In this document: positions 1 to 37,085 of the stretch, in pieces
Position numbering within the stretch: the first letter of the stretch is position 1
Layout: every line of letters begins with the position of its first letter
NCBI GenBank assembly: GCA_903871465.1
Contig: CAIQHB010000070.1
Location: forward strand, 1 to 47,657
DNA: 47,657 nucleotides
DNA from: an uncultured Methanosarcinales archaeon
Lineage (GTDB): Archaea; Halobacteriota; Methanosarcinia; Methanotrichales; Methanotrichaceae
Direction of reading: 5' to 3'
Position numbers and translations under genes: made by a program
Notes under the pieces: generated by a model
What the model was told of the DNA's origin: nothing
Seen by the model: only the letters and a program-made list of their open reading frames with translations
Databases searched by the model: none

Positions 1-168
1 CAGTGCGTAAGACTACAGACTCGACGCTGGATGAGATCAAAGCAGTGCGTAAGACTACAGACTCGACGCTGGATGAGATCAAAGCAGTGCGTAAGACTAC
101 AGACTCGACGCTGGATGAGATCAAAGCGGTGCGGGGGAGCACCGAAACAACTCTCGAAGAAATTAAAG
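1..168 (+). repeat. 42-bp coding minisatellite, three perfect units plus one diverged
   Basis: Units occupy 1-42, 43-84 and 85-126 with no base difference between them; 127-168 is a diverged fourth unit. The period is a multiple of three, so gain or loss of units keeps the reading frame. The array may continue to the left of the window. Confidence 0.95.
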
Positions 169-254
169 GCTTGAGAGAAGATATCCAACCAGGGTATGCA
201 AGACAGGTGCGAGAAGACGTCCGTGCCATAAAAGAACGCTTGGGCATGTCCTGA
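1..254 (+). CDS. C-terminal end of a coiled-coil protein built on 14-residue repeats (5' end outside window)
   Basis: The frame is open from the window edge to a TGA at 252-254, so this is the tail of a longer gene; the GTG at 3 is probably an internal Val. It begins with three repeats of the 14-residue unit VRKTTDSTLDEIKA, then a diverged fourth (VRGSTETTLEEIKG), then a unique tail ending in KERLGMS. Charged and hydrophobic residues alternate as in a coiled coil. No enzymatic motif is visible. The repeats are identical at DNA level, so copy number probably varies. Function unknown; a structural or sensory coiled-coil tail is the most that can be said. Confidence 0.6.
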   Translation, partial: VRKTTDSTLDEIKAVRKTTDSTLDEIKAVRKTTDSTLDEIKAVRGSTETTLEEIKGLREDIQPGYARQVREDVRAIKERLGMS

Positions 255-930
255 AATGATATGCAATTAAGAATATTGCGCGCAGCTTTGCAGCTCTCCT
301 ATCATCCTTGCTGACCTCATGCTCCTGCCTCCACTGATCCCTGTGCAGGCAGTGCTGCAGCGTCTGTGGCGAACTATAGTCACGTACCCCGAAATGTTCG
401 CTCTTTCCACCTTTCGGGCCAGCCATTCTTTTCGATCCGGTCCATGTATTACCATCTTCAAAAATGGCCGCCTTGCAGCCTACAGCGCCCGAAATCCAGG
501 CGCCTTCTCCCGGCCTCCAATGTCGACAAGCCCGCCAACTGCGGCCCGGAGGTGAGTGGAGTGCAATCTCGGTTAAGATGGATCTTGTTAATCTGATAGC
601 CAAACCTCTTGGGTTACGGACGGCCACCACAGAGACACAGAGCGCACGGAGGACGCACAGAGAAAAAAAACGAAAATTTAAAGTTGGGATCACACGCATG
701 TTATATGTTGGAATTATAGATATGATGATCATAACCCCGGTCTATGGACGGTCACCATGGGGCAAACGCGCACAAAGAAAATCCAGGGTAAATTTCGAGT
801 CTTAATATTATATATATTTTTTTAGTAGTCTCTGTGCGTTCTCTGTGAACTCTGTGCCTCTGTGGTGGGAGTTCGTTAGTAGTATGTATAATAATCATTC
901 GATGATTTAGGAAAGAAGGAAGCATCCCAG
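255..930. other. Non-coding, repeat-rich stretch
   Basis: I see no convincing gene here. The stretch carries members of several dispersed repeats. One at 349-410 is similar to 6147-6209, one at 484-537 is similar to 2226-2279, and one at 545-581 is similar to 3145-3181. A long inverted repeat has arms at about 626-664 and 831-869 related to the elements at 25.7 and 27.2 kb. Open frames crossing it are low-complexity shadows of these repeats. Confidence 0.7.
626..869. repeat. Inverted-repeat element, CTCTGTG family (copy 1)
   Basis: The left arm (626-664) starts CCACCACAGAGACACAGAG and the right arm (831-869) reads CTCTGTGCGTTCTCTGTG and onward to CTCTGTGGTGG. The arms are near reverse complements, separated by about 165 AT-rich bases. 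The arm sequence matches the elements at 25635-25860 and 27086-27309, but here the arm order is reversed, so it may be two half-elements or a differently bounded copy. Shorter decayed matches lie near 3211-3250, 3790-3830 and 3895-3950. Confidence 0.75.
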
Positions 931-1338
931 CTAACCATTAACCAGCCTTCTTACTCCATCCTTAAGCATTATCACGTTGAAGTTTATAATCAACCCCAGC
1001 CATGCATCTCTCAACCTCAGATATGTCAGCAGCTGCGCATCATGAATGGGCTCAAGAGCTTCTATCGACTTCAGCTCAACTATAACTTTATCTTCCACCA
1101 GCAAATCCATCCTGTATCCGCAGTCAAGATCCACTCCCTTGTAATTCAAGGGCAGAGGGACCTGCCGTTCGAATTTAATTCCCCTCAATGTCATCTCGCA
1201 GCACAGACACTCTTCATAGGCAGATTCAAGAAGTCCGGGACCAAGGTGCTTGTGGACCTCAATGGCCGCGCCGATGATCTTCCCGGATATATCATTCTCC
1301 TGGCGCCCGGTAGTTGCCCCCTGATTTATTTCTGTCAA
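931..1338 (-). CDS. GxxExxY-family protein
   Basis: This 135-residue protein has the family signature at about residues 33-41 (GPGLLESAYEE) after the conserved IIGAAIEVHKHLG helix. Further on is a nuclease-like core: YRMDLLVEDKVIVELKS, where the D and the ExK pair resemble a PD-(D/E)XK active site, followed by H-AQLLTYLR. The length is normal for the family, so it looks intact. GxxExxY proteins are widespread in bacteria and archaea, often as accessory genes, and their function is not established; a nuclease role is inferred from the fold-like motif only. It is the first gene of a long minus-strand series of accessory genes. Confidence 0.88.
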   Translation of the reverse strand: MTEINQGATTGRQENDISGKIIGAAIEVHKHLGPGLLESAYEECLCCEMTLRGIKFERQVPLPLNYKGVDLDCGYRMDLLVEDKVIVELKSIEALEPIHDAQLLTYLRLRDAWLGLIINFNVIMLKDGVRRLVNG

Positions 1339-1587
1339 GTATTCTCACACCTTTAGTTTATTATCGCAGTGCGAGGGTCTAAGATACTTATAAAAGTTTC
1401 TGATGATTGATAGATTGAGATGGCTTCCTGTTAGGTTGGGCGTGTTGGCGATAACTAACCTGGGGTTTACGGGAATAAAACCTACGTCGTCACAGATCGT
1501 ACAGAGGATGATCGTGGAATCGATGCACGCCCCATTTAATGCAAAAGTAAGCCACATACGGTCCTCTCGTGAGTCCGGCTTTTTCTA

Positions 1588-1785
1588 TCAGCTTCTTGTG
1601 GAGGCCATCTTGAGTCCTTCTCCTGCGCTCTTGAGTCGGGATTTCAGGCATCCTATTATAGCCTCGTTTACGTTTTCCAAAGCATTTTCGAGGGTTTCTC
1701 CTTCAGAAAGACAGCCTGGAAGGTCAGGGCACTCGGCTACATATCTGCCTTCATCATTTTTCTCTATGATAATGTTAAATTTCAT
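1588..1785 (-). CDS. HicB-like antitoxin, no HicA partner seen
   Basis: The 65-residue protein starts MKFNIIIEKNDEGRYVAECPDLPGC, the classic HicB partial RNase H-like fold, followed by the helix in which SEGET and ALENVNEAI appear. HicB proteins neutralise the HicA mRNA interferase and often repress their own operon. No HicA-like frame (small dsRBD-like protein with a GSH motif) is visible on either side, so this is an orphan or has lost its toxin. The C-terminal tail (KSAGEGLKMASTRS) has no obvious DNA-binding domain. A frameshifted relative lies at 3965-4136. Confidence 0.85.
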   Translation of the reverse strand: MKFNIIIEKNDEGRYVAECPDLPGCLSEGETLENALENVNEAIIGCLKSRLKSAGEGLKMASTRS

Positions 1786-1844
1786 GATTGTAGTTACATG
1801 TCTTAAGTCGTATAAGCTTTCTGGATGCTGGTTCTGAGCATGCC

Positions 1845-1950
1845 TTACAACATTGGGCTAAAAGTAGGATAATCGAGAAGATGATATGTCAGGATAATTG
1901 AATCAACAAGGACTCTCTCACCCGGTGGCAAATTGGCCAGAGTCCTTCTT
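1845..1950 (-). pseudogene. PIN-domain (VapC-like) toxin remnant, N-terminus only
   Basis: Directly downstream of the DUF104-like antitoxin, a second frame reads NLPPGERVLVDSIILTYHLL and stops about 13 residues later. The V-D-S-x-I-L-T-Y core is the first beta strand and first catalytic Asp of a PIN ribonuclease; the usual Asn after Ser is Ile here. A normal PIN toxin runs 120-150 residues, so all other acidic residues are missing. It closely matches the remnant at 6479-6567 (ENEKVFIDSNILTYFLL). Confidence 0.65.
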
Positions 1951-2136
1951 TCATTGTGACCCATATTTCGTATCCTCTATGATTTCATCTATCGCTTCTG
2001 CGTCGAGTTTAATCAACCCATATGTTCTCTTTACGATATTTTTCTTTATCTCTAATTCGACTTCCTCGCCCTCTTCAAGATCCAGGTCTCCAACAGGCCT
2101 CAGGACATGACTCTCATAAATGGCTTTTACCTTCAT
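1951..2136 (-). CDS. DUF104/AF2212-like antitoxin, copy 1
   Basis: The 61-residue protein begins MKVKAIYESHVLRPVGDLDL and continues EEGEEVELEIKKN, the typical beta-rich N-terminal half of DUF104 (PF01954) antitoxins. It ends with YGLIKLDAEAIDEIIEDTKYGSQ split here as YGLIKLDAEAID and EIIEDTKYG. Such proteins pair with PIN toxins in archaea. Its former partner appears to be the stump at 1845-1950. All of it except the last residues lies in a 259-bp block duplicated at 5564-5822, and the two proteins differ at position 16 (Val/Ile), near the C-terminus (Glu/Gly), and in their tails. Confidence 0.82.
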   Translation of the reverse strand: MKVKAIYESHVLRPVGDLDLEEGEEVELEIKKNIVKRTYGLIKLDAEAIDEIIEDTKYGSQ

Positions 2137-2218
2137 TAATATCGCCAGAAATTAGTATCCGCGCAATGGCTAAATCTTTTTGCACTCGATGACTTTTAAA
2201 TGCAGGAGCAATTCTCGC
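1960..2218. repeat. 259-bp duplicated block, copy 1
   Basis: By eye it aligns without gaps to 5564-5822 with 6 substitutions in 259 positions (about 97.7% identity). It carries the DUF104-like antitoxin from the codon for TKYG back to its start plus about 80 bp upstream, including a possible TATA box (minus strand, TTTAAAAG near 2201-2210). Both boundaries are sharp. Confidence 0.93.
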
Positions 2219-2225
2219 AATGCAT

Positions 2226-2279
2226 AGCGCCCAAAATCCGTGCGCCTTCTCCCGGCCTCCAATGTCGACAAGCCCGCCA
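2226..2279. repeat. 54-bp dispersed repeat (second copy at 484-537)
   Basis: It runs from AGCGCCC to AAGCCCGCCA and differs from 484-537 at 3 of 54 positions. It lies in the upstream gap between the DUF104-like gene and the PIN toxin gene. No function visible. Confidence 0.85.
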
Positions 2280-2351
2280 CCGGCTGCAGTTGGAATTTAA
2301 TTCTTCCTGATGACTTTGTGGCAGGTTTTCCTTTAGCAGAGGGTTGTATGA

Positions 2352-2822
2352 TCAAACGGATATGGACTGATCTGCGTCCACAGACTTCAAGAGATCCAAA
2401 AGATCCGCAGTCGTATAGACTTTCACAGACTTCTGTTTCTTGAAATGCTTATCATTGGACCATACTGGACAGCAAAGCTGCAATGCTAAAGCTAAAATCG
2501 GTGCATCCTTTTCATCGATCTCTTTCATGATCTCGGATGCATTTTTTATCTTTTGGCAATATAAATCAAAAGGGGCGATCTTAATCTCTTCCATGATATA
2601 TCTTTCAGCAAATTCAAGTGATAAGGATTGAGACTTTCTCTCTCGTTTTGCTATAATATAACTTCTATATTTTTCTATTTCCTTTAATCCATATTCTGGA
2701 AAGTAGATACTGAAAAATTTAGATCTTATCAATTGTGCGTGTATTGAATGGTCCTTCAGAAGAGCCGATATAAGGATATTAGTATCGACTACAATTCTAG
2801 GCTCTTCTTTTCTTCTTTCCAT
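2352..2822 (-). CDS. PIN-domain toxin (VapC-like ribonuclease)
   Basis: The 156-residue protein has PIN landmarks: IVVDTNILISALL at residues 10-22 with Asp13, an acidic helix (FPEYGLKEIEKY) after the SKFFSIYFPE strand, and DEKDAPILALALQL with WSNDKHF near the C-terminus for the later acidic residues. PIN toxins cleave tRNA, rRNA or mRNA using a Mg2+-bound acidic cluster. Full length suggests it is intact, the only such PIN gene in this island. It overlaps the 3' end of its upstream neighbour by 34 bp, a typical antitoxin-toxin arrangement. Confidence 0.87.
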   Translation of the reverse strand: MERRKEEPRIVVDTNILISALLKDHSIHAQLIRSKFFSIYFPEYGLKEIEKYRSYIIAKRERKSQSLSLEFAERYIMEEIKIAPFDLYCQKIKNASEIMKEIDEKDAPILALALQLCCPVWSNDKHFKKQKSVKVYTTADLLDLLKSVDADQSISV

Positions 2823-2998
2823 ACTCGCTCTCGCACTTCCTCTAAAGCCTGAAGATCCTCTTCCGCAAGATCCAGATCCTCGACTGCTCTTTCAAATAGC
2901 ACCCATTTTGTTTCTTCTTCTTTAATGAGGTCATCGATCTTCTTCTTTAGGGGCTTCAAGGGCAGGCAATCTGGGATCTCAACCTCAATTACACCCAC
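2789..2998 (-). CDS. Putative antitoxin of the adjacent PIN toxin
   Basis: This 69-residue acidic protein (begins MGVIEVEIPDCLPLKPLKKK) is mostly helical after a short beta N-terminus and is rich in Glu and Leu (EEDLQALEEVRERVWKEE). It lies just upstream of the toxin gene and overlaps it by 34 bp. Small size, acidity and position point to a VapB-type antitoxin, although no AbrB, RHH or Phd signature is clear. Confident as a gene, less so as to family. Confidence 0.72.
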   Translation of the reverse strand: MGVIEVEIPDCLPLKPLKKKIDDLIKEEETKWVLFERAVEDLDLAEEDLQALEEVRERVWKEEKKSLEL

Positions 2999-3298
2999 TT
3001 TATCACCACACGACTATCTGTCCTTGTAGTTCATAAACTCTTTCTTGGATTAGTCATTCAATGATCGCAGATCGCTCCTGCGCCCCCTGTCCTCTCGCCG
3101 GGGCTTTGGTCTCCTGCAACTCTTGTTTAGGGCGGCAACCCTGGTCCGGAGGTGGTTGGTGTGCAATCTCGGTTAAGCTGGGGGGAGGATAGTTTGAACA
3201 CTGGTGGTTTACGGGAAGAAAACCACAGAGGCCCGAGAGCGCACGGGGGACGAGCGGACGGAGACGACTATTATCTCAGATGCAATCGTTTGCGTATT
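2999..3298. other. Non-coding stretch with repeat fragments
   Basis: I see no gene here. It contains the 3145-3181 copy of a short repeat shared with 545-581 (GTGCAATCTCGGTTAAG core) and, at about 3210-3250, a decayed half of the CTCTGTG-family inverted repeat. The order, short repeat then hairpin arm, is the same as at 545-664, suggesting one composite element. Confidence 0.6.
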
Positions 3299-3457
3299 TT
3301 ATGAATCTAATGGTTGAAAATCGTAGGCATGAGCTTGCAGTCTTCCTCGCAACATGCCTTCATTGGGGCCGAATTCGCTAAAGTCCGCTTTCTTATCGGC
3401 TATTATTTCCGCATTTCTTATTCGGAGTTCGACATCCCTGAAATAATCAGAGATCAC
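3299..3457 (-). pseudogene. Truncated TumE-like (DUF6516) toxin
   Basis: Translation from a GTG at 3457, overlapping the upstream stop as GTGA, gives VISDYFRDVELRIRNAE, then DFSEFGPNEGMLRGRLQ, which I recognise as the N-terminal half of archaeal TumE-type toxins. After GRLQ the sequence loses similarity and stops at about 52 residues, roughly half the usual length. The missing half is replaced by the repeat-bearing gap at 2999-3298, so the toxin is probably dead. Family assignment is from memory of its motif. Confidence 0.6.
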
Positions 3458-3708
3458 GAGGAAAGCACCGCTCTTGCTTTCTTTATCTCTCCCGCAATCG
3501 AATTCTTTCCTTTCAAAAGACCCCACCACTCGAAGTAGTCTTGAGAATCTCCCAGTTCTCCATTCTCGAATCTGCTCAAGAATTTCTGAGAATCCATCTC
3601 ATATCGTCGTTCGAATTCTTTGATCTCTTCTTCAGCCAACCTCATTTTCATCTCTAGCAGTCCTATCTCCCGGCTTCTAGGACCTTTTGATAATGAGTTC
3701 TGCATCAT
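3454..3708 (-). CDS. TumA-like antitoxin
   Basis: The 84-residue protein starts MMQNSLSKGPRSREI and contains the helical segment EEEIKEFERRYEMDSQKF with DYFEWWGLLKG, typical of small archaeal proteins encoded directly before TumE toxins. Its TGA overlaps the GTG start of the truncated toxin by four bases, so the two were translationally coupled. Likely an antitoxin left without a functional toxin. Confidence 0.68.
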   Translation of the reverse strand: MMQNSLSKGPRSREIGLLEMKMRLAEEEIKEFERRYEMDSQKFLSRFENGELGDSQDYFEWWGLLKGKNSIAGEIKKARAVLSS

Positions 3709-3964
3709 TAGCTGTTGTGGCGCTTATCATCATAATAAATTGCTTCTAGCCTTATAAGACTTCGTAGCTTGGGTAAGCCCTGGTGGTTGCGGAATTAAAC
3801 GTCAGAGTCGCAGAGGACGAACGACGGAGAACTACTATCCGGGAAGTAATTGGCTGGGCTTTTCAGGGTTGGATGGAATGGAGATGAGGAAGATTACGCG
3901 TCTCTGTTAACTCTTTGCGTTTTGTGATTTGATGATAGTTGGTGCCAGACCCGGGAATTGAAAC

Positions 3965-4136
3965 TCAATCACCGATAATTTGCATCTCGAGATAAGCCTC
4001 GATCGCTTCTTTTACTCTTTCCAGGAGGTCGTCCATGCTTCTAGCTTGTGTGTGGCATCCGGGAAGGGTTGGAACTGTCGCTACGAGGTAGCCATCCTCG
4101 TCTTTTTCAACCAAAACACTGAATTTTTTTTTTCAT
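3965..4136 (-). pseudogene. HicB-like antitoxin with a homopolymer frameshift
   Basis: After ATG there are ten A residues; this frame stops after nine codons. With nine A residues the frame would read on through FSVLVEKDEDGYLVATVPTL, PGCHTQARSMDDLLERV and KEAIEAYLEMQIIGD to a stop, a complete short HicB protein resembling 1588-1785. So this is either a real slippage mutation, a phase-variable run, or a sequencing error. No HicA gene is adjacent. Confidence 0.75.
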
Positions 4137-4294
4137 GACCACATGCTACTGCCTGAATATTCACAGTCGTCTATAATTTGACTGGGATCGAGCTTATCTT
4201 TTTTTGCCTGGATGGAATCCGTGGCCATTGAAATGAAGCCTGCAACACGGTCCCTATAAAAACAAAGATGCGTTTTGCTCAGGAATTCCGTTCA

Positions 4295-4447
4295 TTAGAA
4301 TTTATTACGATTGGCCCTGTAAATTCTCTTCGCTTTCCTGAAAAAAGCTAGCTGCTTGGAGGTGAAGACTGTGCCATTTTCATTCTGGAGGAATTCGTCT
4401 GCTTCAGCACCCTCAAATACCAATCCCAGCTTAGTCGGCCTTGCCAT
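4295..4447 (-). CDS. Small 50-residue protein downstream of a winged-helix regulator
   Basis: It starts MARPTKLGLVFEGAEADEF and ends KRIYRANRNKF. The coding sequence uses ordinary codons with a GGAG-containing region upstream (GAGGAGTCAGGAA). It lies about 90 bp behind the winged-helix gene on the same strand and probably shares its operon. I know of no function; its basic tail and conserved look suggest a real small protein, perhaps part of a toxin-antitoxin-like pair. Confidence 0.6.
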   Translation of the reverse strand: MARPTKLGLVFEGAEADEFLQNENGTVFTSKQLAFFRKAKRIYRANRNKF

Positions 4448-4535
4448 TTCCTGACTCCTCTTGGCTCAATCTTAAATCGATATCATCCAATGCTCTGTCT
4501 TGAGAATGAAGCACTTTCTCCCCTGTCTAAGCGAC

Positions 4536-4925
4536 TCACGCAAGGATGAGCCGGGGGTCCGATTTGTTTTCGTGGGAATCTATTGTGGCCTCTTCTTTTT
4601 CAAGACGAGTTGCATGGAATTCACAGATAGCGTTATCCAACTCAATGAATTTCTTGACCACCGGGTTCTTTAAATTCAATTTATACATTTTCGCTCTTCC
4701 GACCATGCGTGTTTCTCTCACCAGGCCATTTTTCTCTAAATTCTCCCACGCCATAGAGAGGGTTGTTCGGCTGATTCCTGCTCCTTTCGCTATGTCGGTT
4801 TTTGAGTAATCGTAAGCTTTGTTATCCATCAGGAAGTCCAATATTCTCAAAGCCGGGCTTTTTATGCCAAACTCTTTGAGAAATAGCGTCTCATCATGGT
4901 CTTCTATGGGGGGGATTCCGTCCAT
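4536..4925 (-). CDS. Winged helix-turn-helix transcription regulator
   Basis: The 129-residue protein has a wHTH in its middle: PALRILDFLMDNK, then YSKTDIAKGAGISRTTL as helix-turn-helix, then ENLEKNGLVRETRMVGRA as wing, followed by a helical tail that could dimerise. It resembles small archaeal MarR/ArsR-like regulators. Upstream is an AT-rich stretch (4930-5040) with TATA-like sequences in both directions, so it may be divergently controlled with the gene at 5065. It has no effector domain. Likely autoregulates itself and the 50-residue gene behind it; this is inference. Confidence 0.8.
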   Translation of the reverse strand: MDGIPPIEDHDETLFLKEFGIKSPALRILDFLMDNKAYDYSKTDIAKGAGISRTTLSMAWENLEKNGLVRETRMVGRAKMYKLNLKNPVVKKFIELDNAICEFHATRLEKEEATIDSHENKSDPRLILA

Positions 4926-5064
4926 TTATGGGTAGTCTCCTTTTTATTGATGATAAGGGTTTAGTAGCATTGTTGGGCATTATTGATAAATAAAGCTTTC
5001 GTTAATGTATAAAATATTGAACAAGCGATACTTTTAAATCCCTTTGAGTTTATCGAATCCGCAA

Positions 5065-5349
5065 ATGGCAAAGCGTCTCAAAAATTCCGAAGAGATTAAC
5101 GAGATAAAAGCCACGGTCTTCGATAAATTAAATAGGCGTGGAAAATGGGGACCCATTCACACCAGCAAGGAAAATGCCATTAAGGGCATACCCAGTCATG
5201 ATATAGGCGCCGCCAAAGACGTCATAGAAGATGCAATCAAAGACGGATTTTTAAACCTTAAGCCCACAAGCTATGGTGACCAAATATCTCTTAACTTCAA
5301 GAGAAAGGAAGAAATCAAGGCTATTATAGAAACCTATTCTTATCTATGA
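5065..5349 (+). CDS. Hypothetical 94-residue archaeal protein, winged-helix-like
   Basis: I take ATG 5065 (MAKRLKNSEEINEIKATVF) because a TATA-like TTTTAAAT lies at 5032-5039, which would put transcription start only a few bases before it. The protein continues DKLNRRGKWGPIHTSKENAI and has GIPSHDIGAAKDVIEDAI, ending IIETYSYL. The alternation of helices with a final beta pair looks like a small winged-helix domain. It is the only plus-strand gene in the antitoxin island. Function unknown. Confidence 0.72.
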   Translation: MAKRLKNSEEINEIKATVFDKLNRRGKWGPIHTSKENAIKGIPSHDIGAAKDVIEDAIKDGFLNLKPTSYGDQISLNFKRKEEIKAIIETYSYL

Positions 5350-5382
5350 ATACTCTTTCGCCAGACTGGAGCTGAGATAAAA

Positions 5383-5568
5383 TCAATCCCACATCTCCAT
5401 ATCAATTATCTCATCAGCCAGCTTTCTTGGAATTTTCATCATTCCATAAAACCTATCAACTGCGCTCTTTTGAGCAAGAATATCTACATCCTTTCTTTCG
5501 AGAGGACCAATCTCCGTAACGGGCTTTGATAAACTTTCCTCATGTCTCCCAATTACTTTTATGCCCAT
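5383..5568 (-). CDS. Small antitoxin-like protein with a YGxxK C-terminal motif
   Basis: The 61-residue frame begins MGIKVIGRHEESLSKP and ends FYGMMKIPRKLADEII-DMEMWD. Its C-terminus matches the motif shared by the other small antitoxins here (YG-x-x-K-L then an acidic EII helix). It overlaps the 3' end of the second DUF104-like gene by 29 bp, exactly where the 259-bp duplicated block ends, so it could be the C-terminal part of an older antitoxin whose front was replaced by the block. No toxin follows. Confidence 0.5.
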   Translation of the reverse strand: MGIKVIGRHEESLSKPVTEIGPLERKDVDILAQKSAVDRFYGMMKIPRKLADEIIDMEMWD

Positions 5569-5740
5569 ATTTCGTATCCCCTATGATTTCATCTATCGCT
5601 TCTGCGTCGAGTTTAATCAACCCATATGTTCTCTTCACGATATTTTTCTTTATCTCTAATTCGACTTCCTCGCCCTCTTCAAGATCCAGGTCTCCAATAG
5701 GCCTCAGGACATGACTCTCATAAATGGCTTTTACCTTCAT
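5540..5740 (-). CDS. DUF104/AF2212-like antitoxin, copy 2
   Basis: The 66-residue protein has the same first 57 residues as the copy at 1951-2136 apart from Ile for Val at 16 and Gly for Glu in DEIIGDTKYG, then a different tail (HKSNWET) because the duplicated block ends at TKYG. The changed Glu lies in the presumed toxin-binding helix. No PIN frame follows directly. Either a recent duplicate acting as an extra antitoxin or non-functional baggage. Confidence 0.75.
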   Translation of the reverse strand: MKVKAIYESHVLRPIGDLDLEEGEEVELEIKKNIVKRTYGLIKLDAEAIDEIIGDTKYGHKSNWET

Positions 5741-5822
5741 TAATATCGCCAGAAACTAGTATCCGCTCAATGGCTAAATCTTTTTGCACTCGATGACTTT
5801 TAAATGCTGGAGCAATTCTCGC
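5564..5822. repeat. 259-bp duplicated block, copy 2
   Basis: Direct-orientation copy of 1960-2218 with six substitutions and no gaps. It joins unrelated sequence at both ends: the 5383-5568 frame on one side and a truncated PIN frame on the other. Confidence 0.93.
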
Positions 5823-5836
5823 CCTCTCTGATTTAT

Positions 5837-5908
5837 CTATTGGGAATAGAAAAAGAGATGATGATAGATGATGATGTTAGTGTCGATCAGTATCGCCAGG
5901 TATCTTCC
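5837..5908 (-). pseudogene. PIN-domain toxin remnant
   Basis: Overlapping the end of the antitoxin at 5887-6042, another frame reads GRYLAILIDTNIIIYHH and stops ten residues after the DTN. LIDTN is the first PIN beta strand with its catalytic Asp. The remainder of the domain is gone; the break lies next to the edge of the duplicated block at 5822, which may have caused the loss. Confidence 0.68.
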
Positions 5909-6042
5909 TCCAGATCCAGGATCTCTTCTATGCCTAAAACCCTGTCAAGCTTGACGATTCCATAATACTTATCTAGGATCTTCTTCAGGAGATCGTTCAA
6001 AAGCAGTCCCTCGGGCACATCCACTTTTTTCTCGCCCACCAT
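5887..6042 (-). CDS. Small VapB-like antitoxin (51 residues)
   Basis: It starts MVGEKKVDVPEGLLLNDL and ends ILDLEEDTWRY. The middle, YYGIVKLDRVLGIEEIL, matches the YG-x-x-K-L motif of neighbouring antitoxins. It resembles 6216-6401, which ends FELEEDNWLC. The overlapping PIN fragment is its former toxin. Short, but its codon use and position support a real gene. Confidence 0.68.
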   Translation of the reverse strand: MVGEKKVDVPEGLLLNDLLKKILDKYYGIVKLDRVLGIEEILDLEEDTWRY

Positions 6043-6146
6043 TAACCACTATACAACTCTAATCGCTTTTTAGCTATGGACCTTTTCATCCAAAATTCAT
6101 GACAATTTAAGGAATCCAATCCAGTTCACCCTGTTCTGCAGTGCCG

Positions 6147-6209
6147 GCAAATGCTGTAGTGTCTGTGGCGGACTATAGTCCCGTACCAGAGATATTCTCC
6201 CTTTCCTCC
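6147..6209. repeat. Dispersed repeat with ACTATAGT core (other copy at 349-410)
   Basis: Both copies share GTCTGTGGCG(A/G)ACTATAGT followed by (C/A)CGTACC and a pyrimidine-rich end. The core contains the palindrome ACTATAGT. Here the repeat begins just where the PIN frame downstream of 6216-6401 degenerates. Confidence 0.75.
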
Positions 6210-6215
6210 GCTCAA

Positions 6216-6401
6216 TCAGCACAGCCAGTTGTCTTCCTCTAGTTCGAAGATCTCCTCAAGAGTAAGTGGTTTCTTTAGCTTTAATATGCCTACATAATTT
6301 TCCAAGATCTTCATCCTATCCTCTTTGGAAGGCATTCCTGTTATCTCCATATCCTTTGTTAATCCTGGGGTTATCTCTTTCTTCAATTCCGGTTTTTGCA
6401 T
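6216..6401 (-). CDS. Small VapB-like antitoxin, possibly N-terminally extended
   Basis: The 61-residue frame from ATG 6401 reads MQKPELKKEITPGL and ends YVGILKLKKPLTLEEI-FELEEDNWLC, with the same C-terminal plan as 5887-6042. The frame stays open upstream through ESLRRFEIYYASNEEVISKA, so translation may begin earlier from a non-ATG codon or this may be a fusion with debris. Behind it, another frame gives GRQLAVLIE, the very start of a PIN domain, before a dispersed repeat takes over. Confidence 0.62.
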   Translation of the reverse strand: MQKPELKKEITPGLTKDMEITGMPSKEDRMKILENYVGILKLKKPLTLEEIFELEEDNWLC

Positions 6402-6478
6402 GAGGAGAGCCTTGATTGCTTTAGATATTACTTCTTCGTTGGAAGCATAATATATTTCAAACCTTCTAAGGGATTCAT

Positions 6479-6567
6479 TTAAAAATATACTTTCAATAAA
6501 AAGTAAGTTAGAATGTTGGAATCAATAAAAACTTTTTCATTTTCGGGAAGATTCCGAAGATTACCAT
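6479..6567 (-). pseudogene. PIN-domain toxin remnant behind the DUF2283 hybrid
   Basis: A frame overlapping the stop of the DUF2283 gene reads NLPENEKVFIDSNILTYFLL and stops five codons on. FIDSN is the first PIN strand with catalytic Asp. It is closely related to the remnant at 1845-1950 (NLPPGERVLVDSIILTYHLL). Only about 28 residues survive. Confidence 0.68.
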
Positions 6568-28751: not shown

Positions 28752-28832
28752 ATGAGAATGGCGTTGAGCATGAGTTTGAGCAAGGAGATGATCATGAGGA
28801 TGATCCTGGAAATTAGCGCAGAGGAGGAGTAA
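28752..28832 (+). CDS. 26-residue Met-rich mini-gene coupled to the CHAT-like gene
   Basis: ATG 28752 opens MRMALSMSLSKEMIMRMILE followed by ISAEEE and TAA. The TAA overlaps the ATG of the next gene by one base (TAATG), and GAGGAGGAG before it serves as ribosome binding site for the downstream gene. The peptide would form an amphipathic helix with six Met. It may be a leader for translational coupling or a small protein in its own right; nothing but sequence supports it. Confidence 0.45.
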   Translation: MRMALSMSLSKEMIMRMILEISAEEE

Positions 28833-31800
28833 TGATGCAAAATATCACAATCGCTGTTTCTGAGGCGGGAAGCGCACAGACCAGGACCTTTGACTATAAA
28901 GTTACCCTTGACGGAGAAGTCGTATCTGAGAGAAGGCTCTCACCAGTCCAGACTTCACAGGTTCGGGAGATGGCAATGCAGTATCTCTCTCTTCTGCAGG
29001 GCGGCGGCAGCAACAGCAGCCCGGGCGCGAAAAGTTATCTGCCCATCCTTGGAGCCGGATTATTTCATCTCTTTCTGGAGTCCGGATGGCAGGAGTTTGG
29101 CTCGAAGATCCCGGCGGCTGACGTTGGGAGACTGATCGTCAATTCGTCAATCCCGGAGGTTCTGCAGCTGCCCTGGGAACAGCTCAGGCTCCCCGGCCGG
29201 GAGGAAATCCTTGGCGATAGCCCCGACTTTAGCCTCATTCGCCATCCCGATAGCGCGGAAAGTCTTTCTTCGTTCTCGCTGGAATTGTCTCCCGGTCCCT
29301 TGCGCGTGCTCTTCCTGGCCGTGGAAAGTGACTACGAACGCGAAGAAGGCGAGATGCTCAAAATGGCGGAGGGACTGGATTTGTCGCTGGAGATCTCCGA
29401 CTCCGGCACCCTGGAAGAGCTGAAGAGCCTGGCTGAGGCCTTCCGGCCTCACATCGTGCACCTGGTGGGCCAGGCGAGAATGTCCGGCGTTCAAGCCGGT
29501 TTTTCAATGCCGGGCATGGTCACCGGAGGCACGGGAAGCCGCTCTAATCTCTGCTCAGCAGAAGAGCTGGCAGAAGCCCTGAAGAACAGTGGGGCACAGT
29601 GCATAATACTGGGCGGCCGGCAGAGCGAGCCCGCATTTGCTCAGGGCCTCCTCTGTCAGACGCTGGCGGAGCATATCCCGATGAGTGTGGCCTGGAATGG
29701 CTCAACCGCATCTGCCTCCTCCTTCTATCGTTCTCTGGCGAAAGGCGAGTCTCTGGACACAGCTCTAAAAGCTGCGGCCATTGAGACCCGGAAGACAGGC
29801 CGGGAAGCGGGAGCGATTGCTGCCTTTCCCATCCTTTATGCGACATGTGATCAATCCAGAGATCGGTTGGGGCTATTCGACACCCAAAGAAATGAAAGCG
29901 TTGCCGCCACAGTCTGCAAAGAGCAGCTTGCACTGCCAGGCATGACAGAAGGATATGCGGAGTGCTTCGTGGACAGGAGACGGGATTTAGAGCGTTTCCT
30001 TCCTCTTCTGCTTGGCGGAACGGTGCACACTCTAATATTCACCGGCCCGAATGGCGTCGGCAAGAGCACTCTTGCGGTGCATCTCGCCCGCTCGCTTGCC
30101 TTCTCCGGCTACTCCATCCTGCCCATTTATGCCTCTTCCAATAATCCCATAAGCTCGCCCCGCCTTCTGGACGCGATCATAGGACAGACAACAGCCGGAA
30201 ATGGAGGAGATTTGATGAAGCTCAAAGATCCGAGTCTCTCAGTCAAGGAACGGCTGCAGATTTCAATCGACTTCTTGAAAGCCAATCGCATCCTGATGTT
30301 ATGGGACGGCCTGGATCTGGATGGCAAGACTGGCAAGATCGCAGACCCTGTTATTGCCGATTTCTATCGGCTATTGCTCAAGGACCTCGTCTCAGCTCGC
30401 GCTATCATCACCTGTAGCTCTCTTCCTGCCGAGGCTTCGATACTGCCCTCGAAATCACGTGAGTTGAAGATTGCTGGCCTTTCAGAGACGGCTTTCATGA
30501 GGTTCCTTCTCCAGGATGATCTGGTGGCAAATCGCTATCATAAAGGCGAGTTATCATATGCGGATCTTCAAGCGATACATTCCAGCTTCCTGAGAGATCC
30601 GGCAAATCTGTCCCGGATGCGCCGGGCTTTGAGGACAGAGTTATCTCCTGGCGTGGATGCCAGGGCAAAGCTTTGCGCAACTCTCGGCCCGGAGTCCCAT
30701 CAAGCCCTTTCCCGGGCGGCAGTCTACGAGACAGCCATGAGCCCCGCAGCATTTGCGGTCGTGGCAGAAGTCCCGGTCGAGACAGCCCTTGCCACTCTCT
30801 CTCTTTGGCAAAGCCTCTCCCTGGTTTATGAGGTGGGAAAGTTGTGGGCGGTGCCCTCTTCCGATCGAGCCGCATATCTGGCCGCCATAAGCACTGAAGA
30901 GCGTGGCATTGCGCAAAAATTGGCAGGAGATTTTCTGAAAAACCAGGCCGAAGCGGGCCGCTCTGCGGAGCTTTCCCTCTCCCGGCTGGACTGTCTATTG
31001 GAAGCACGGGGGCACTATCTTGCAGCATCGGATCTGGAAGATGCAAGGGTTATCACCGGACGTATCAGCGGCTATCTGGAGAAGCGCGGCTACTATTCCG
31101 AGATAATAAGACTGAACCGGGAGTTATTGGACTTGCAGCCGGATGCCGGGCCCTTGGGCTGGATCGCCAGGGTCTACGCGGACCAGGGCGATTACGGAAG
31201 GGCTCAAGAGTGGTACGAGCGTGCCATCAAGATTGCGCCTGTTGCTTCTGCCTATCTGGGTCTGGGCATGGCATACCTGTCCCTGAGAAAACTTGAACCG
31301 GCCGGAGTCAACCTGCAAAAGGCCGTGGATATCTACGTTTCCGAAAAAGACAGGGCGGGCGTTGCTGCCGGCCTGCTGGGATTGGCATCCATCGATATGG
31401 AGAAGAACGAAAACGATAGCGCGCATTTGAAACTGCAAAAGATTGCAGAGATCTCGGAGAGCCTGGGCGATCTGGCCGGCAGGGCCAGGGCATTGCAGGA
31501 AATGGCCAGGCTGGATATGATGCGGCGAGACTATGAGGCGGCACAGCCAACGCTTCTTGAATCTCTGCAGCTGATGCAGAGACTGGGCGACAGAACCGGG
31601 GAAGCCGTCGTCCTTTTCAATCTGGCCAGTCTCTTTCTGGAGAAGGGCGAAAATGCCCTTGCAGACCGGGAGTTCCAAAAAGCCCTGATGCTGGCGCGTG
31701 AGAATGGAGATCGTATAGGCGAAGCCGCTATCCTGCACAGCCTGGGTCTGATCAATTCAAATGCCGGGGACAGAGAGTTGGCCAGGGAGAATTTCGAGGA

Positions 31801-32104
31801 AGCTTTACGGATCTTTCAAGAGATTGCAGACAGATCCGGCGAAGCAGGAGCATTCTTCCAGCTTGGCGCTATAGCCTTGCAGCGGGACAAGATCCAGGAA
31901 GGACTTCGTCTGATGGCCCTTGCCGCCATAATCCTGAGAAGCATCAAGAGCGATGAGGTCAAGAACGTCGAGCCGCTGGTGGAGCGCCTGGCCTCACAGC
32001 TCGGCAACACACAAGAGCAGTTCATGACCATGGTGCAGGAGGTCTTGCAGAGTTACGTCAGAGATCGGGGTTGGGGGCTTGTGGAGAGGGCCTCAGGAAA
32101 ATAG
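28832..32104 (+). CDS. CHAT-like / STAND NTPase / TPR protein with a degenerate CHAT active site
   Basis: This 1090-residue protein has three parts. Residues ~100-335 have the CHAT fold order (SIPEVLQLPWEQLRLPG, RPHIVHLVGQA, CIILGGRQSE, SFYRSLAKGESLDTALKAA). Catalytic His (normally G-H-G) is Gln214, and the Cys of LNACxS is Arg263. Residues ~375-560 are a P-loop NTPase: Walker A GPNGVGKST at 405-413, Walker B ILMLWDGLD at 487-495, then a winged-helix-like arm. Residues ~750-1040 are at least seven TPRs (YGRAQEWYERAIKIAP). Such STAND proteins act as sensors in signalling or phage defence; here the protease half is probably non-catalytic. Start ATG 28832 is coupled to the mini-gene. Confidence 0.85.
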   Translation: MMQNITIAVSEAGSAQTRTFDYKVTLDGEVVSERRLSPVQTSQVREMAMQYLSLLQGGGSNSSPGAKSYLPILGAGLFHLFLESGWQEFGSKIPAADVGRLIVNSSIPEVLQLPWEQLRLPGREEILGDSPDFSLIRHPDSAESLSSFSLELSPGPLRVLFLAVESDYEREEGEMLKMAEGLDLSLEISDSGTLEELKSLAEAFRPHIVHLVGQARMSGVQAGFSMPGMVTGGTGSRSNLCSAEELAEALKNSGAQCIILGGRQSEPAFAQGLLCQTLAEHIPMSVAWNGSTASASSFYRSLAKGESLDTALKAAAIETRKTGREAGAIAAFPILYATCDQSRDRLGLFDTQRNESVAATVCKEQLALPGMTEGYAECFVDRRRDLERFLPLLLGGTVHTLIFTGPNGVGKSTLAVHLARSLAFSGYSILPIYASSNNPISSPRLLDAIIGQTTAGNGGDLMKLKDPSLSVKERLQISIDFLKANRILMLWDGLDLDGKTGKIADPVIADFYRLLLKDLVSARAIITCSSLPAEASILPSKSRELKIAGLSETAFMRFLLQDDLVANRYHKGELSYADLQAIHSSFLRDPANLSRMRRALRTELSPGVDARAKLCATLGPESHQALSRAAVYETAMSPAAFAVVAEVPVETALATLSLWQSLSLVYEVGKLWAVPSSDRAAYLAAISTEERGIAQKLAGDFLKNQAEAGRSAELSLSRLDCLLEARGHYLAASDLEDARVITGRISGYLEKRGYYSEIIRLNRELLDLQPDAGPLGWIARVYADQGDYGRAQEWYERAIKIAPVASAYLGLGMAYLSLRKLEPAGVNLQKAVDIYVSEKDRAGVAAGLLGLASIDMEKNENDSAHLKLQKIAEISESLGDLAGRARALQEMARLDMMRRDYEAAQPTLLESLQLMQRLGDRTGEAVVLFNLASLFLEKGENALADREFQKALMLARENGDRIGEAAILHSLGLINSNAGDRELARENFEEALRIFQEIADRSGEAGAFFQLGAIALQRDKIQEGLRLMALAAIILRSIKSDEVKNVEPLVERLASQLGNTQEQFMTMVQEVLQSYVRDRGWGLVERASGK

Positions 32105-34627: not shown

Positions 34628-34820
34628 GCTTATGCGATTTTCCTCAGAGATATATGCTTCGATCTAAAATAATATAATTGTCGAACTTATCTCTCAACGG
34701 TACATTCTTACACGAATTCCTGGGATCAGGTCGGGAATCGAAGCCTGAATTCGGTCTACTAACATCTGCTTTGCATCAAAAGTAAGGTTTTGACCCTACT
34801 TTAGATTCATACCTCTGACT

Positions 34821-35168
34821 TTAGTTGCAGGAACCCAGGATGTATCCCATTTTCGTACATTTCATGAATACCACAGTTAGATTGTACGCAATAATTTTAG
34901 CAAGTAATTCATTCACCTGAGCGGTCGGATTCTTGGATTTCAAGGTCTCGCCAAACTTGCGCTTGATGGCTGCATTTGTGGCTTCTATGTCGGATAGCTT
35001 ATGACAATGGGCCAAAAATTCATCACAATTAAGCTGGAAACAGTGAAATATCTTCTTCCAAATAGCAGAACCGCCAGCCCTACCAGTCGCGTTTTTCTTG
35101 AAAGGAATGTACGCTTTCCCACCAGTGTTCGCCACGGATTGAAGATTGAGACGCGATGAATAAGCCAA
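34821..35168 (-). pseudogene. C-terminal fragment of an IS4/IS5-like DDE transposase
   Basis: The frame reads YSSRLNLQSVANTGGKAYIP, FKKNATGRAGGSAIWKKIF and IEATNAAIKRKFGETLKSKN, then AQVNELLAKIIAYNLTVVF, which is the last catalytic Glu and tail of a DDE transposase. The N-terminal two-thirds with the first two Asp are missing. It lies on the same strand as, and downstream of, the AT-rich cassette at 35260-36885, so insertion sequence activity has touched this locus. Confidence 0.72.
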
Positions 35169-35259
35169 ATAAGCGGATACCTCATTGATGGGTTAAGTTA
35201 TATAGCGGTTAATTACTTTGGGGATTAGAAACAGAAGAGCTTCGGGTGTATAAATCTGC

Positions 35260-35898
35260 TTATTTTTCATTCATCGGATATATCGGGGTGATATCTTCAA
35301 CTCTGATTCTTTTCTCTTTCGCATACGCTTCTAATTGAGCTTTATTGAATGGATACCACTCATTGTAGGGATACCTACGGAAATATTGCGCTATAGCTTC
35401 TCTGTAATGTTCATAAGCAAAGGACGCTAATCTGCCTTTCCTCAGATTTATATATTTTTCCAAATCAACTTTCTCAACTTGGAATATTTCGTGGAAATTT
35501 ATTGCCATTTCTTCATCGATACCAATATCGGCATCTTTCGGCAAATAGAACCAACTTGCATTTTTGCAGGCGCGTTCTGTTAATGCGTGTACCCACCCCA
35601 AATCTTTACTAATGGGGTTCCTATACACTTCCTTAAACGGCCTAATTCTGAATAATGATATGGAAGATCTCCAAGTTGCATCGCAATCTTGAGTCGCGAC
35701 AATACCCCATGTTTTTTCAAGTATAACGGTGGCAGAAATATCTCTCTTGTCCTGAGCTTTTGCCCAGTTCATTGCCTCAAGATAACCGTCTTCCGATACA
35801 GCTTGTACATCGTCTAGTGAGATATTCGGACAAGGCAAAGGGAAAAATAAATCTCCTTGTCGTACAAGTTGATCGCCATTAAGTTTTTCATAACACAC
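35260..35898 (-). CDS. Unknown protein with QGDLF and TQDCD motifs
   Basis: The 212-residue protein begins at a GTG overlapping the upstream stop by one base (TAGTG), with GGTGAGG as ribosome binding site. Near the N-terminus it has LVRQGDLFFPLPCPNI and then IVATQDCDATWRSSIS. The QGD...(V/A)TQDCD pair is typical of a group of small proteins encoded in accessory operons; I cannot name it. The C-terminal half is charged with YREAIAQYFRRYPYNEWYPF. No membrane helices. Last gene of a three-gene overlapping operon; AT-rich compared with its flanks. Confidence 0.7.
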   Translation of the reverse strand: MCYEKLNGDQLVRQGDLFFPLPCPNISLDDVQAVSEDGYLEAMNWAKAQDKRDISATVILEKTWGIVATQDCDATWRSSISLFRIRPFKEVYRNPISKDLGWVHALTERACKNASWFYLPKDADIGIDEEMAINFHEIFQVEKVDLEKYINLRKGRLASFAYEHYREAIAQYFRRYPYNEWYPFNKAQLEAYAKEKRIRVEDITPIYPMNEK

Positions 35899-36545
35899 TA
35901 ATCCTCACCCGCCCTAAGGACGGATCTTAGTCTAGCCTCTTCTTCAAGACATTTTTTACGGCGATCGTTAATCTCTTTTGACGTATTTAATGCTCTTTTA
36001 TATGCGTCAACGAATGGTGCTTTACCAAATTTCGCCTTCGTTTTGCAGAGAGTTTCCCCTAACTCGTTGTCTAAAAACGTATCTTGTCTGACATTAGGAC
36101 TGGGCATTGTTTGCACTATTCTTCCAAAATCGATTTCTAATGATTTATCTCTCTGAACGTTATTAGCTCTTCCGTATGGAGATGGATGTTGCCTAGGTCG
36201 AACTGAGTGCGCAAATGCAAGGTATTTTTGTATATCCTCGTTGGCTATTGGAACGGTATCCTGTGTCTTTACAAGAGACAAAAACCCAATAGATTTCTGA
36301 TCTAGGAGGGTCCCCCTAAGTCCACAGCTCGCTTCTCGACTAATTTGATTTATGTCAAATTGACCTAATGGAAAGGAATTTTGAGTGATTGATTTTGACG
36401 TCTCGTCTCCCATTGCAAGAGCATTTTGTATATTAAAATTGGATCGCCCTTTCCAGATTAAATCCGAAGGTGAACCTCCGCAAATTTGATTGTTGTTGCC
36501 TTGATTCAATGGCAACACTTCAGAAGAACTTGGCAAGAATCTCAT
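35898..36545 (-). CDS. Unknown protein, middle gene of the cassette
   Basis: From ATG 36545 (MRFLPSSSEVLPLNQGNNNQ) the protein is about 215 residues. It is polar and Asn/Gln-rich at the front. It then has FAHSVRPRQHPSPYGRANNV and ends with a helical, basic-acidic region (YKRALNTSKEINDRRKKCLE EEARLRSVLRAGED, two pieces). No family recognised. It overlaps the upstream DUF3467-like gene by 26 bp and the downstream gene by 1 bp, which argues for coupled translation. An ATG eight codons further up (36569) is possible. Confidence 0.62.
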   Translation of the reverse strand: MRFLPSSSEVLPLNQGNNNQICGGSPSDLIWKGRSNFNIQNALAMGDETSKSITQNSFPLGQFDINQISREASCGLRGTLLDQKSIGFLSLVKTQDTVPIANEDIQKYLAFAHSVRPRQHPSPYGRANNVQRDKSLEIDFGRIVQTMPSPNVRQDTFLDNELGETLCKTKAKFGKAPFVDAYKRALNTSKEINDRRKKCLEEEARLRSVLRAGED

Positions 36546-36885
36546 CCACCTTCGCGTCAATATCATCATTTCCGGATTTGACGTGCCCTATACGGGTGTC
36601 ATATTGTTTCAAATTTTGCAATAGATTCATTACCAAAAACTTGGCGGTCTGTGGTGTAAGCCTGATGCAAAGCTCTTCGGTATGATCAACTACTGCATGT
36701 CCTTTCGTGAGGGACTCAGTCAAATTGTTTTCTGATACAACCCCAATTAATTCAAATAAACCATAATTTACGGTGCATGATATATAACTCGGCGCAATAT
36801 CTCTATAACTAGGCGACCTATGCCACCTCTGTTCAGGCAGTTCTATCTTCTGTTCCGTTACCTTTTCTTCCGCGCCTTCTGCCAT
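36520..36885 (-). CDS. DUF3467-like protein, first gene of the cassette
   Basis: From ATG 36885 (MAEGAEEKVTEQKIELP) the protein has the pattern of DUF3467: a beta-rich core (YISCTVNYGLFELIGVV) and LTPQTAKFLVMNLLQNLKQY, matching the usual end of that domain (P-x-x-AK-x-L-x-x-L). Function of the family is unknown; it is a small (~100-residue) domain sometimes next to other accessory genes. A TATA-like AAAATACTTATT is present near 36930-36945 on the minus strand, so transcription starts here. Longer frame to 36930 adds 15 unlikely residues. Confidence 0.65.
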   Translation of the reverse strand: MAEGAEEKVTEQKIELPEQRWHRSPSYRDIAPSYISCTVNYGLFELIGVVSENNLTESLTKGHAVVDHTEELCIRLTPQTAKFLVMNLLQNLKQYDTRIGHVKSGNDDIDAKVDEILAKFF

Positions 36886-37085
36886 ATGACGACATCTCCA
36901 TCTTGATGTGACAATATCAATGACATCCAATGTAATAAGTATTTTGTAGCAAGCTATTATAATAATAATTTATTTATCGTTAGACTATTATATTTAGGTT
37001 GTGCTCAATATTGGACTTTAGGTGCAAAACCATTAACATCGAAACCTTTAAAGATTTATAAGAGCATTATCTATAGGGTGATTTA
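36886..37085. other. AT-rich divergent promoter region
   Basis: Drives the cassette on the minus strand and the COG4315-type gene on the plus strand. TTTATAAG near 37055-37062 is the likely TATA box for 37086, and AGGGTG at 37075-37080 its ribosome binding site. Confidence 0.45.

Follow-up and report, generated by a model that had tools for sequence, protein, structure and literature searches.

What do three small, overlapping genes of an uncultured Methanosarcinales archaeon encode, and how did they come to lie among genes of a different composition? The stretch of DNA that was analysed, a contig of 47,657 nucleotides to which we refer as the window, carries these genes on its minus strand, in the frames that had been read from the letters. 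Gene 1 (36520..36885) encodes a DUF3467-like protein of 121 residues, which starts at ATG 36885, the frame being open to TTG 36930, and stops at TGA 36520. Gene 2 (35898..36569; ATG 36545 or 36569, stop TAG 35898) encodes the presumed antitoxin, a protein of 215-223 residues with a long N-terminal extension, and gene 3 (35260..35898; GTG 35898, stop TAA 35260) encodes the presumed toxin, a protein of 212 residues from what we call the QGD/TQDCD family. Genes 1 and 2 overlap by 26 bp, or by 50 bp if ATG 36569 is the start of gene 2, and genes 2 and 3 overlap by 1 bp. As all three frames recur in the same order at two other loci (L004 and L006) and pN of gene 3 (0.26-0.27) is well below its pS (0.76-0.84, which is saturated), they are more than chance open frames. 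Among the cassette pairs for which it was computable, dN/dS was 0.06-0.43. The AT-richness for which the genes had been singled out is clear, with a GC content of 0.398 in the element as against 0.527 in the 2 kb to its left and 0.500 in the 2 kb to its right, and with a GC3 of 0.35-0.43 in the three genes as against 0.57-0.66 in five neighbouring genes.

What carries the three genes is a small IS5-type transposon of 2265 bp (34767..37031) that has decayed. The original prediction had proposed lateral acquisition and had seen a transposase remnant at the end of the set, and both proposals are borne out; that the whole set lies between the two ends of one transposon had not been seen. For the left terminal inverted repeat, TGCTTTGCATCAAAAGTAAGGTTTTGACCC (34767..34796, plus strand), a count by eye gives 27 of 30 positions identical with the end that adjoins an intact transposase in L016; the right one is GGTTTTGCACCTAAA in the minus-strand reading (37017..37031). 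They are flanked by 9-bp target-site duplications on the plus strand, ACTAACATC (34758..34766) and ATTAACATC (37032..37040), which agree at 8 of 9 positions. A pair of ends as good as this occurs once in the real window, compared with a mean of 0.03 (maximum 1) in 30 Markov-simulated windows. The remnant of the transposase (34821..35195, minus strand) matches positions 190-288 of the 289 of the IS5-family model NF033579 with an E-value of 6.6e-11 and 42 bits, the curated cut-off of 140 being set for the full-length protein, and is 80% identical to the copy in L006 over 110 residues. No intact transposase was found in the element; this C-terminal part, with one stop, is all that remains. In a relative (L134) the same neighbours, by eye a glycogen-phosphorylase-like gene, a gene for a 147-residue secreted protein and a phosphoesterase gene, surround an uninterrupted site without the insert.

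Comparison with intact relatives, which come from Methanothrix and its family and whose ends follow the pattern GGCTTTGCA..TAAA, agrees with these boundaries. Elements at L119, L120, L124 and L127 have target duplications matching at 9 of 9 positions together with an open transposase of about 400 residues, and those at L037 and L028 have duplications of 9/9 and 8/9. In the intact relatives it is other cargo that adjoins the transposase. In L006, a contig of 3156 bp from a bin of another family that may be mis-binned, one end is followed by the fragmented transposase, then by genes 3, 2 and 1 and by the other end, as in the window; L004 has kept one end and just a trace of the transposase. Thus in all three elements with a TQDCD gene 3 (window, L004 and L006) the transposase survives in broken form or hardly at all, while the three genes stay open. 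Two related cassettes with a HEPN-like gene 3 (L055 and L059) sit between ends of the same kind, with imperfect flanking repeats and without a transposase, which suggests that cassettes may also move in trans. No such ends were found flanking the cassettes of L056, L061, L062, L064 and L067.

The transposon group itself is varied. At L119 (positions 110-6547) three consecutive elements have identical types of end and are separated by one and the same 9-bp repeat; two are 2462-bp copies with a transposase of about 403 residues and the third (110-1605) has none. Elements at L120, L121, L124, L127, L128 and L130 carry diverse cargo, including several unknown small genes, the SDH-type ClpP-like proteases of L124 and L127 (Pfam matches) and, in L130, a protein of 134 residues whose end is held in common with gene 2 of one kind of cassette, the YGSK kind described below (E = 2e-9).

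To what extent do the three genes belong together? Gene 3 was matched in 3 of 237 genomes of the class, one match being a remnant of 36 residues, and in 3 of 392 genomes of the phylum, where G268 adds a full-length copy. One phylum match, in G365, was taken as chance, since it covers 92 residues inside a frame that by eye is Cdc48-like. The window protein is 54-59% identical to the copies of L004 and L006 over its whole length, and each of the three full-length copies (window, L004, L006) belongs to a complete three-gene set; no full-length gene 3 apart from the set was found in the class and phylum genomes. With gene 1 of L006 as the query, relatives were found in 16 of the 237 class genomes, and genes 2 and 3 follow gene 1 at 14 of these 16 loci, the exceptions being L063, which is cut by a contig end, and L069, where gene 1 is broken. 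These counts fit the suggestion that the genes are translated as a set. A second cassette is present in the window's own genome (G000:C72, L059:1056-2382), where the transposase-less ends mentioned above enclose a DUF3467-like gene, gene 2 and a HEPN-like gene with an R-x6-H motif. The HEPN cassette of L056 (G188:C213) adjoins a ParB-like gene and genes that by eye have a plasmid or virus look.

The findings that would have spoken against the original prediction did not appear, gene 3 never being apart in the full-length cases found; a qualification is that DUF3467 genes also stand alone. A wider profile of gene 1 gave DUF3467-type matches in 58 of the 392 phylum genomes, and of 19 further loci examined from those 58, 18 are stand-alone DUF3467 genes of Methanosarcinales with stable neighbours and the remaining one (L100) is the first gene of another set of three. 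Examples of the stand-alone genes are G000:C37:116532-116777 (L111), L109, L113 and L116; in Methanothrix their neighbours are TPR, AsnC-like and transporter genes (named by eye). Searches of plasmids, phages and viral contigs gave no relative of gene 3, whether with the window query, with an alignment of the window and L004 copies (viral contigs) or with the L006 copy (plasmids), none of gene 1 in plasmids or viral contigs and none of the YGSK gene 3 in plasmids. Titles and opening lines of abstracts on archaeal toxin-antitoxin systems of SecB-like or HEPN type, passenger genes of IS elements, mobile insertion cassettes, Methanosaeta insertion sequences and archaeal tripartite modules held nothing describing this set.

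The naming of gene 1 after DUF3467 needs a similar qualification. The window protein does match PF11950, but weakly (E = 0.011; 16.2 bits, the cut-off being 25), and its E-value of 9.2e-18 was obtained with a profile that includes the window copy. The copy of L004 reaches 18.0 bits; among five other cassette proteins checked, L064 (26.2 bits) and L068 (26.3 bits) pass the cut-off, L055 scores 20.3 bits and L056 and L100 have no match, while all four stand-alone proteins checked pass. Judged by profile comparison, the cassette and stand-alone groups are related (hhalign probability 98.5%, E = 1.6e-15), the window protein on its own giving 29.6% and an E-value of 5.7e-4. In the portions of the literature covered, DUF3467 was mentioned only in an unrelated context.

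The gene behind this front is exchangeable. For a comparison of 16 cassettes we took the 16 class loci, left out L065 because it nearly duplicates L064, L063 because its contig is cut and L069 because its gene 1 is broken, and added the window, L006 and L100. Gene 1 is DUF3467-like throughout, weakly so in the window and L100, whereas gene 3 is of at least five kinds, which carry names of our own: TQDCD (three cassettes), HEPN-like (six), YGSK (five), HicA-like (one) and a protein of 82 residues (one). Links by blastp between the kinds are limited to those between two HEPN groups and a match of 17 residues at E = 0.009. One member of the HEPN kind matches Pfam HEPN at E = 0.002, under the curated cut-off, and the kind matches bacterial proteins annotated as HEPN at E = 2e-7 and 3e-6; the 95-residue gene 3 protein of L068 matches HicA_toxin at E = 0.051, again under the curated cut-off. 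Genes 2 and 3 of the window have no meaningful match in Pfam or NCBIfam, and PHROGs gave nothing convincing for any of the three window genes (best E = 0.04). Genes 2 and 3 overlap by 1-26 bp in several relatives and are separated by about 7-11 bp in most YGSK cassettes.

Gene 2 was cut by hand into an N-terminal and a C-terminal part, and it is between these parts that the cassettes change partners: gene 3 is exchanged together with the C-terminus of gene 2, and the front of gene 2 is partly common between kinds. The similarity of the C-terminal parts follows that of gene 3 (partial Spearman 0.48, reached in 0 of 2000 permutations with 16 cassettes; 0.46, 3 of 2000, with the 12 non-redundant ones), and the same comparison found no link to gene 1. 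Between cassettes of different kinds, 6 of 100 pairs of N-terminal parts are similar at E<=1e-3, compared with a mean of 0.05 (maximum 2) in 60 shuffles and one match for the reversed sequences, and none of 100 pairs of C-terminal parts is. Single pairs illustrate the same pattern. L004 and L056 share 66% identity in gene 1 and 41% in the N-terminal part of gene 2 and have no similarity beyond that, while the window and L004 share 48% in the C-terminal part of gene 2, where about 65 residues are conserved with the other TQDCD cassettes, and 59% in gene 3 and cannot be aligned in gene 1. Whether the N-terminal part in turn follows gene 1 is less clear. The correlation (0.22, 21 of 2000 permutations, 16 cassettes) is not significant among the non-redundant cassettes (0.15, 345 of 2000), that with gene 3 is about equal (0.21, 31 of 2000; 0.21, 110 of 2000 among the non-redundant), and the N-terminal part of the window resembles that of L055 though their gene 1 proteins are hardly alike. 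These values hint, weakly, that the N-terminal part may follow gene 1.

The HEPN kind has a bacterial two-gene counterpart. On two Gloeothece plasmids a HEPN gene is overlapped from upstream by a gene for a protein of 118-119 residues, which matches only residues 94-183 of the 204 of gene 2 of L060 (E = 2e-6 and 7e-6), and there is neither a gene 1 nor an N-terminal extension. As the Gloeothece partner matches the C-terminal domain of gene 2 alone, the HEPN cassette resembles a pair of known type to which an N-terminal extension, on the presumed antitoxin, and gene 1 have been added; the window differs further from the pairs in its gene 3. A third record, from Thermus, gave no match at that level. 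That the extension is missing from two-gene relatives thus holds for the HEPN kind; the searches turned up no two-gene relative of the TQDCD kind. L068 stands in a similar relation to HicAB, having a HicA-like gene 3 (below threshold, as given above) and a gene 2 whose end is HicB-like by eye, but with gene 1 and an N-terminal extension of about 110 residues in front. More generally, the small overlapping pair with the presumed antitoxin first is arranged as in type II toxin-antitoxin systems.

By analogy with known systems, this mobile and modular three-gene unit is most likely a tripartite toxin-antitoxin system with a DUF3467-type partner. In the form that we favour, and hold to be probable by a modest degree, the cargo of the decayed transposon is a modular toxin-antitoxin-like unit whose antitoxin would depend on a helper, as in the bacterial toxin-antitoxin-chaperone (TAC) modules. 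Gene 3 would be the toxin and gene 2 the antitoxin, neutralising the gene 3 product by binding it through the C-terminal domain. The N-terminal extension of gene 2 would act as an adaptor for the DUF3467-like protein of gene 1 and bind it, so that the antitoxin would work only while gene 1 is present, and the same front would serve the other toxin-antitoxin-like pairs (HEPN, HicA-like and YGSK). As to biological purpose, the unit would stabilise the element and perhaps serve in the response to stress or viruses. According to the reports on TAC modules, it is through the extension that the antitoxin becomes dependent on a SecB-like helper, and unrelated antitoxins can be given such an extension (PMC5105189, PMC6377645); one helper family is combined with HigBA, MqsRA and HicAB (PMC5105189). 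Like TAC (HigBA of M. tuberculosis with its SecB-like helper; CmdTAC), the cassettes have three adjacent genes, here in a conserved order and with presumed roles, a presumed antitoxin with an extension that the bare pair lacks and one putative helper family with unrelated toxin-like families, here HEPN, HicA-like, YGSK and TQDCD. Unlike TAC, where the chaperone-addiction region (ChAD) is C-terminal, the extension is N-terminal here and the conserved part linked to gene 3 is C-terminal; moreover, the cassettes are archaeal and the putative helper is DUF3467-like and not SecB by sequence.

Attempts to connect gene 1 with SecB gave nothing. PF02556 is absent from the window's own genome and from 364 genomes of the phylum, the control genomes being positive, and E. 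coli SecB aligned with gene 1 with an hhalign probability of 0.06, a value that unrelated E. coli proteins reach as well. A model of gene 1 was built with AlphaFold from the L006 copy (pLDDT 83.7, pTM 0.56); it has strands at residues 30-35, 41-50, 58-60, 68-70 and 79-89 and a helix at 91-120. Foldseek gave no match to it at E<=0.001, to SecB or otherwise, and SecB is not among the VIA-align rows shown, none of which exceeds Z = 4.6. Since SecB profiles are absent, E. coli SecB cannot be aligned and the fold matches are weak, the chaperone-like helper role of gene 1 is proposed by analogy.

The main rival to a helper role is a role of gene 1 in binding nucleic acid. The unit would still be a tripartite toxin-antitoxin system, with gene 1 as a regulator or co-repressor that binds DNA or RNA and controls transcription through the extension of gene 2; three-gene toxin-antitoxin systems in which the regulator is a separate protein offer a parallel. 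Gene 1 does lead the operon, its model of four to five strands and a single helix gives nucleic-acid binders among the best VIA-align rows (Pur-alpha, Z = 4.3; PC4, Z = 4.0), and in several Methanosarcinales outside Methanothrix a stand-alone DUF3467 gene has an Sm-like or HTH gene nearby (named by eye). A COMMD-like protein scores as high (Z = 4.6), however, values of Z under 8 may reflect a common arrangement alone, and family searches found no DNA-binding motif in gene 1; we consider this alternative rather improbable.

Two further explanations do away with the antitoxin. Defence systems commonly have swappable effectors behind a constant front, and the cassettes could be a virus-defence operon in which genes 1 and 2 sense or assemble and the gene 3 kinds are alternative effectors. 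The transposons of this group may indeed carry defence-like cargo, as at L132 (4536-5984), in another family of the class, where a PD-T4-4_A-like ATPase (PADLOC, E = 1e-60) lies beside this type of end and a transposase remnant. None of the three window proteins has a PADLOC match, though, and the occurrence of the HEPN kind as a bare overlapping pair is a toxin-antitoxin organisation, which makes the defence operon unlikely. The guess at defence in the original prediction thus yields to a toxin-antitoxin-type module, while its lateral acquisition and its treatment of the genes as one set stand. The genes might also be accessories of the transposon, helping transposition or its tolerance by the host and with no toxin function, as their position between the ends and beside the transposase in L006 and the window would allow. 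This explanation is disfavoured and seems very unlikely to us, because related elements with an intact transposase lack these genes and have other cargo and because cassettes occur between ends without a transposase (L055, L059) or with no such ends at all (L056, L061, L062, L064, L067).

Passenger genes are known from IS elements (tIS) and from mobile insertion cassettes (MIC), and toxin-antitoxin cargo is reported for the Tn3 family (PMC7157771). The toxin-antitoxin-like unit that we favour resembles these in being cargo between IS ends, with or without a transposase, and differs from them in its IS5-type ends, 9-bp duplication, tripartite cargo and occurrence in Methanothrix and its family.

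The TQDCD protein has no detectable relative in the databases searched outside three archaeal contigs and the remnant of 36 residues. It matched no known toxin family among the Pfam and NCBIfam profiles and no PDB sequence, and a model from three sequences (pLDDT 38.6) was too poor for a structure search. Its motif order, RQGD..W.IV.SQDCD..ISLF.I.PF..GI..EM..NF, resembles what we take to be the blocks of MazF. A likeness to MazF/PemK is not supported, in that PF02452 gave no match up to E = 10, PDB sequences gave no support and hhalign against 25 PemK-domain sequences gave a probability of 0.34 with E = 0.18.

In its widest form, which is possible and which we put forward tentatively, the reading with a DUF3467 partner makes the cassettes an archaeal, SecB-independent counterpart of chaperone-addicted toxin-antitoxin systems. 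A DUF3467 protein, from a family whose genes otherwise stand alone among stable neighbours in Methanosarcinales, would have become indispensable to exchangeable toxin-antitoxin pairs, to which an N-terminal adaptor of the antitoxin would couple it. The set would move between genomes on IS5-type transposons or on derivatives that have the same ends and lack the transposase, and the QGD/TQDCD protein would represent a new family of toxins. If so, antitoxins came to depend on helpers on at least two occasions, the helpers being unrelated, and the DUF3467 family gains its first testable role. The exchange of toxin-antitoxin pairs behind a constant gene offers natural chimaeras with which adaptors can be tested, and the archaeal transposon group would often carry toxin-antitoxin-like, and perhaps defence-like, cargo. 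About 2.7 kb to the left of the element the window also encodes a protein of 1090 residues (28832-32104) with a Walker A motif, TPR-like repeats and, by eye, perhaps a CHAT-like front, which makes it a STAND-type candidate.
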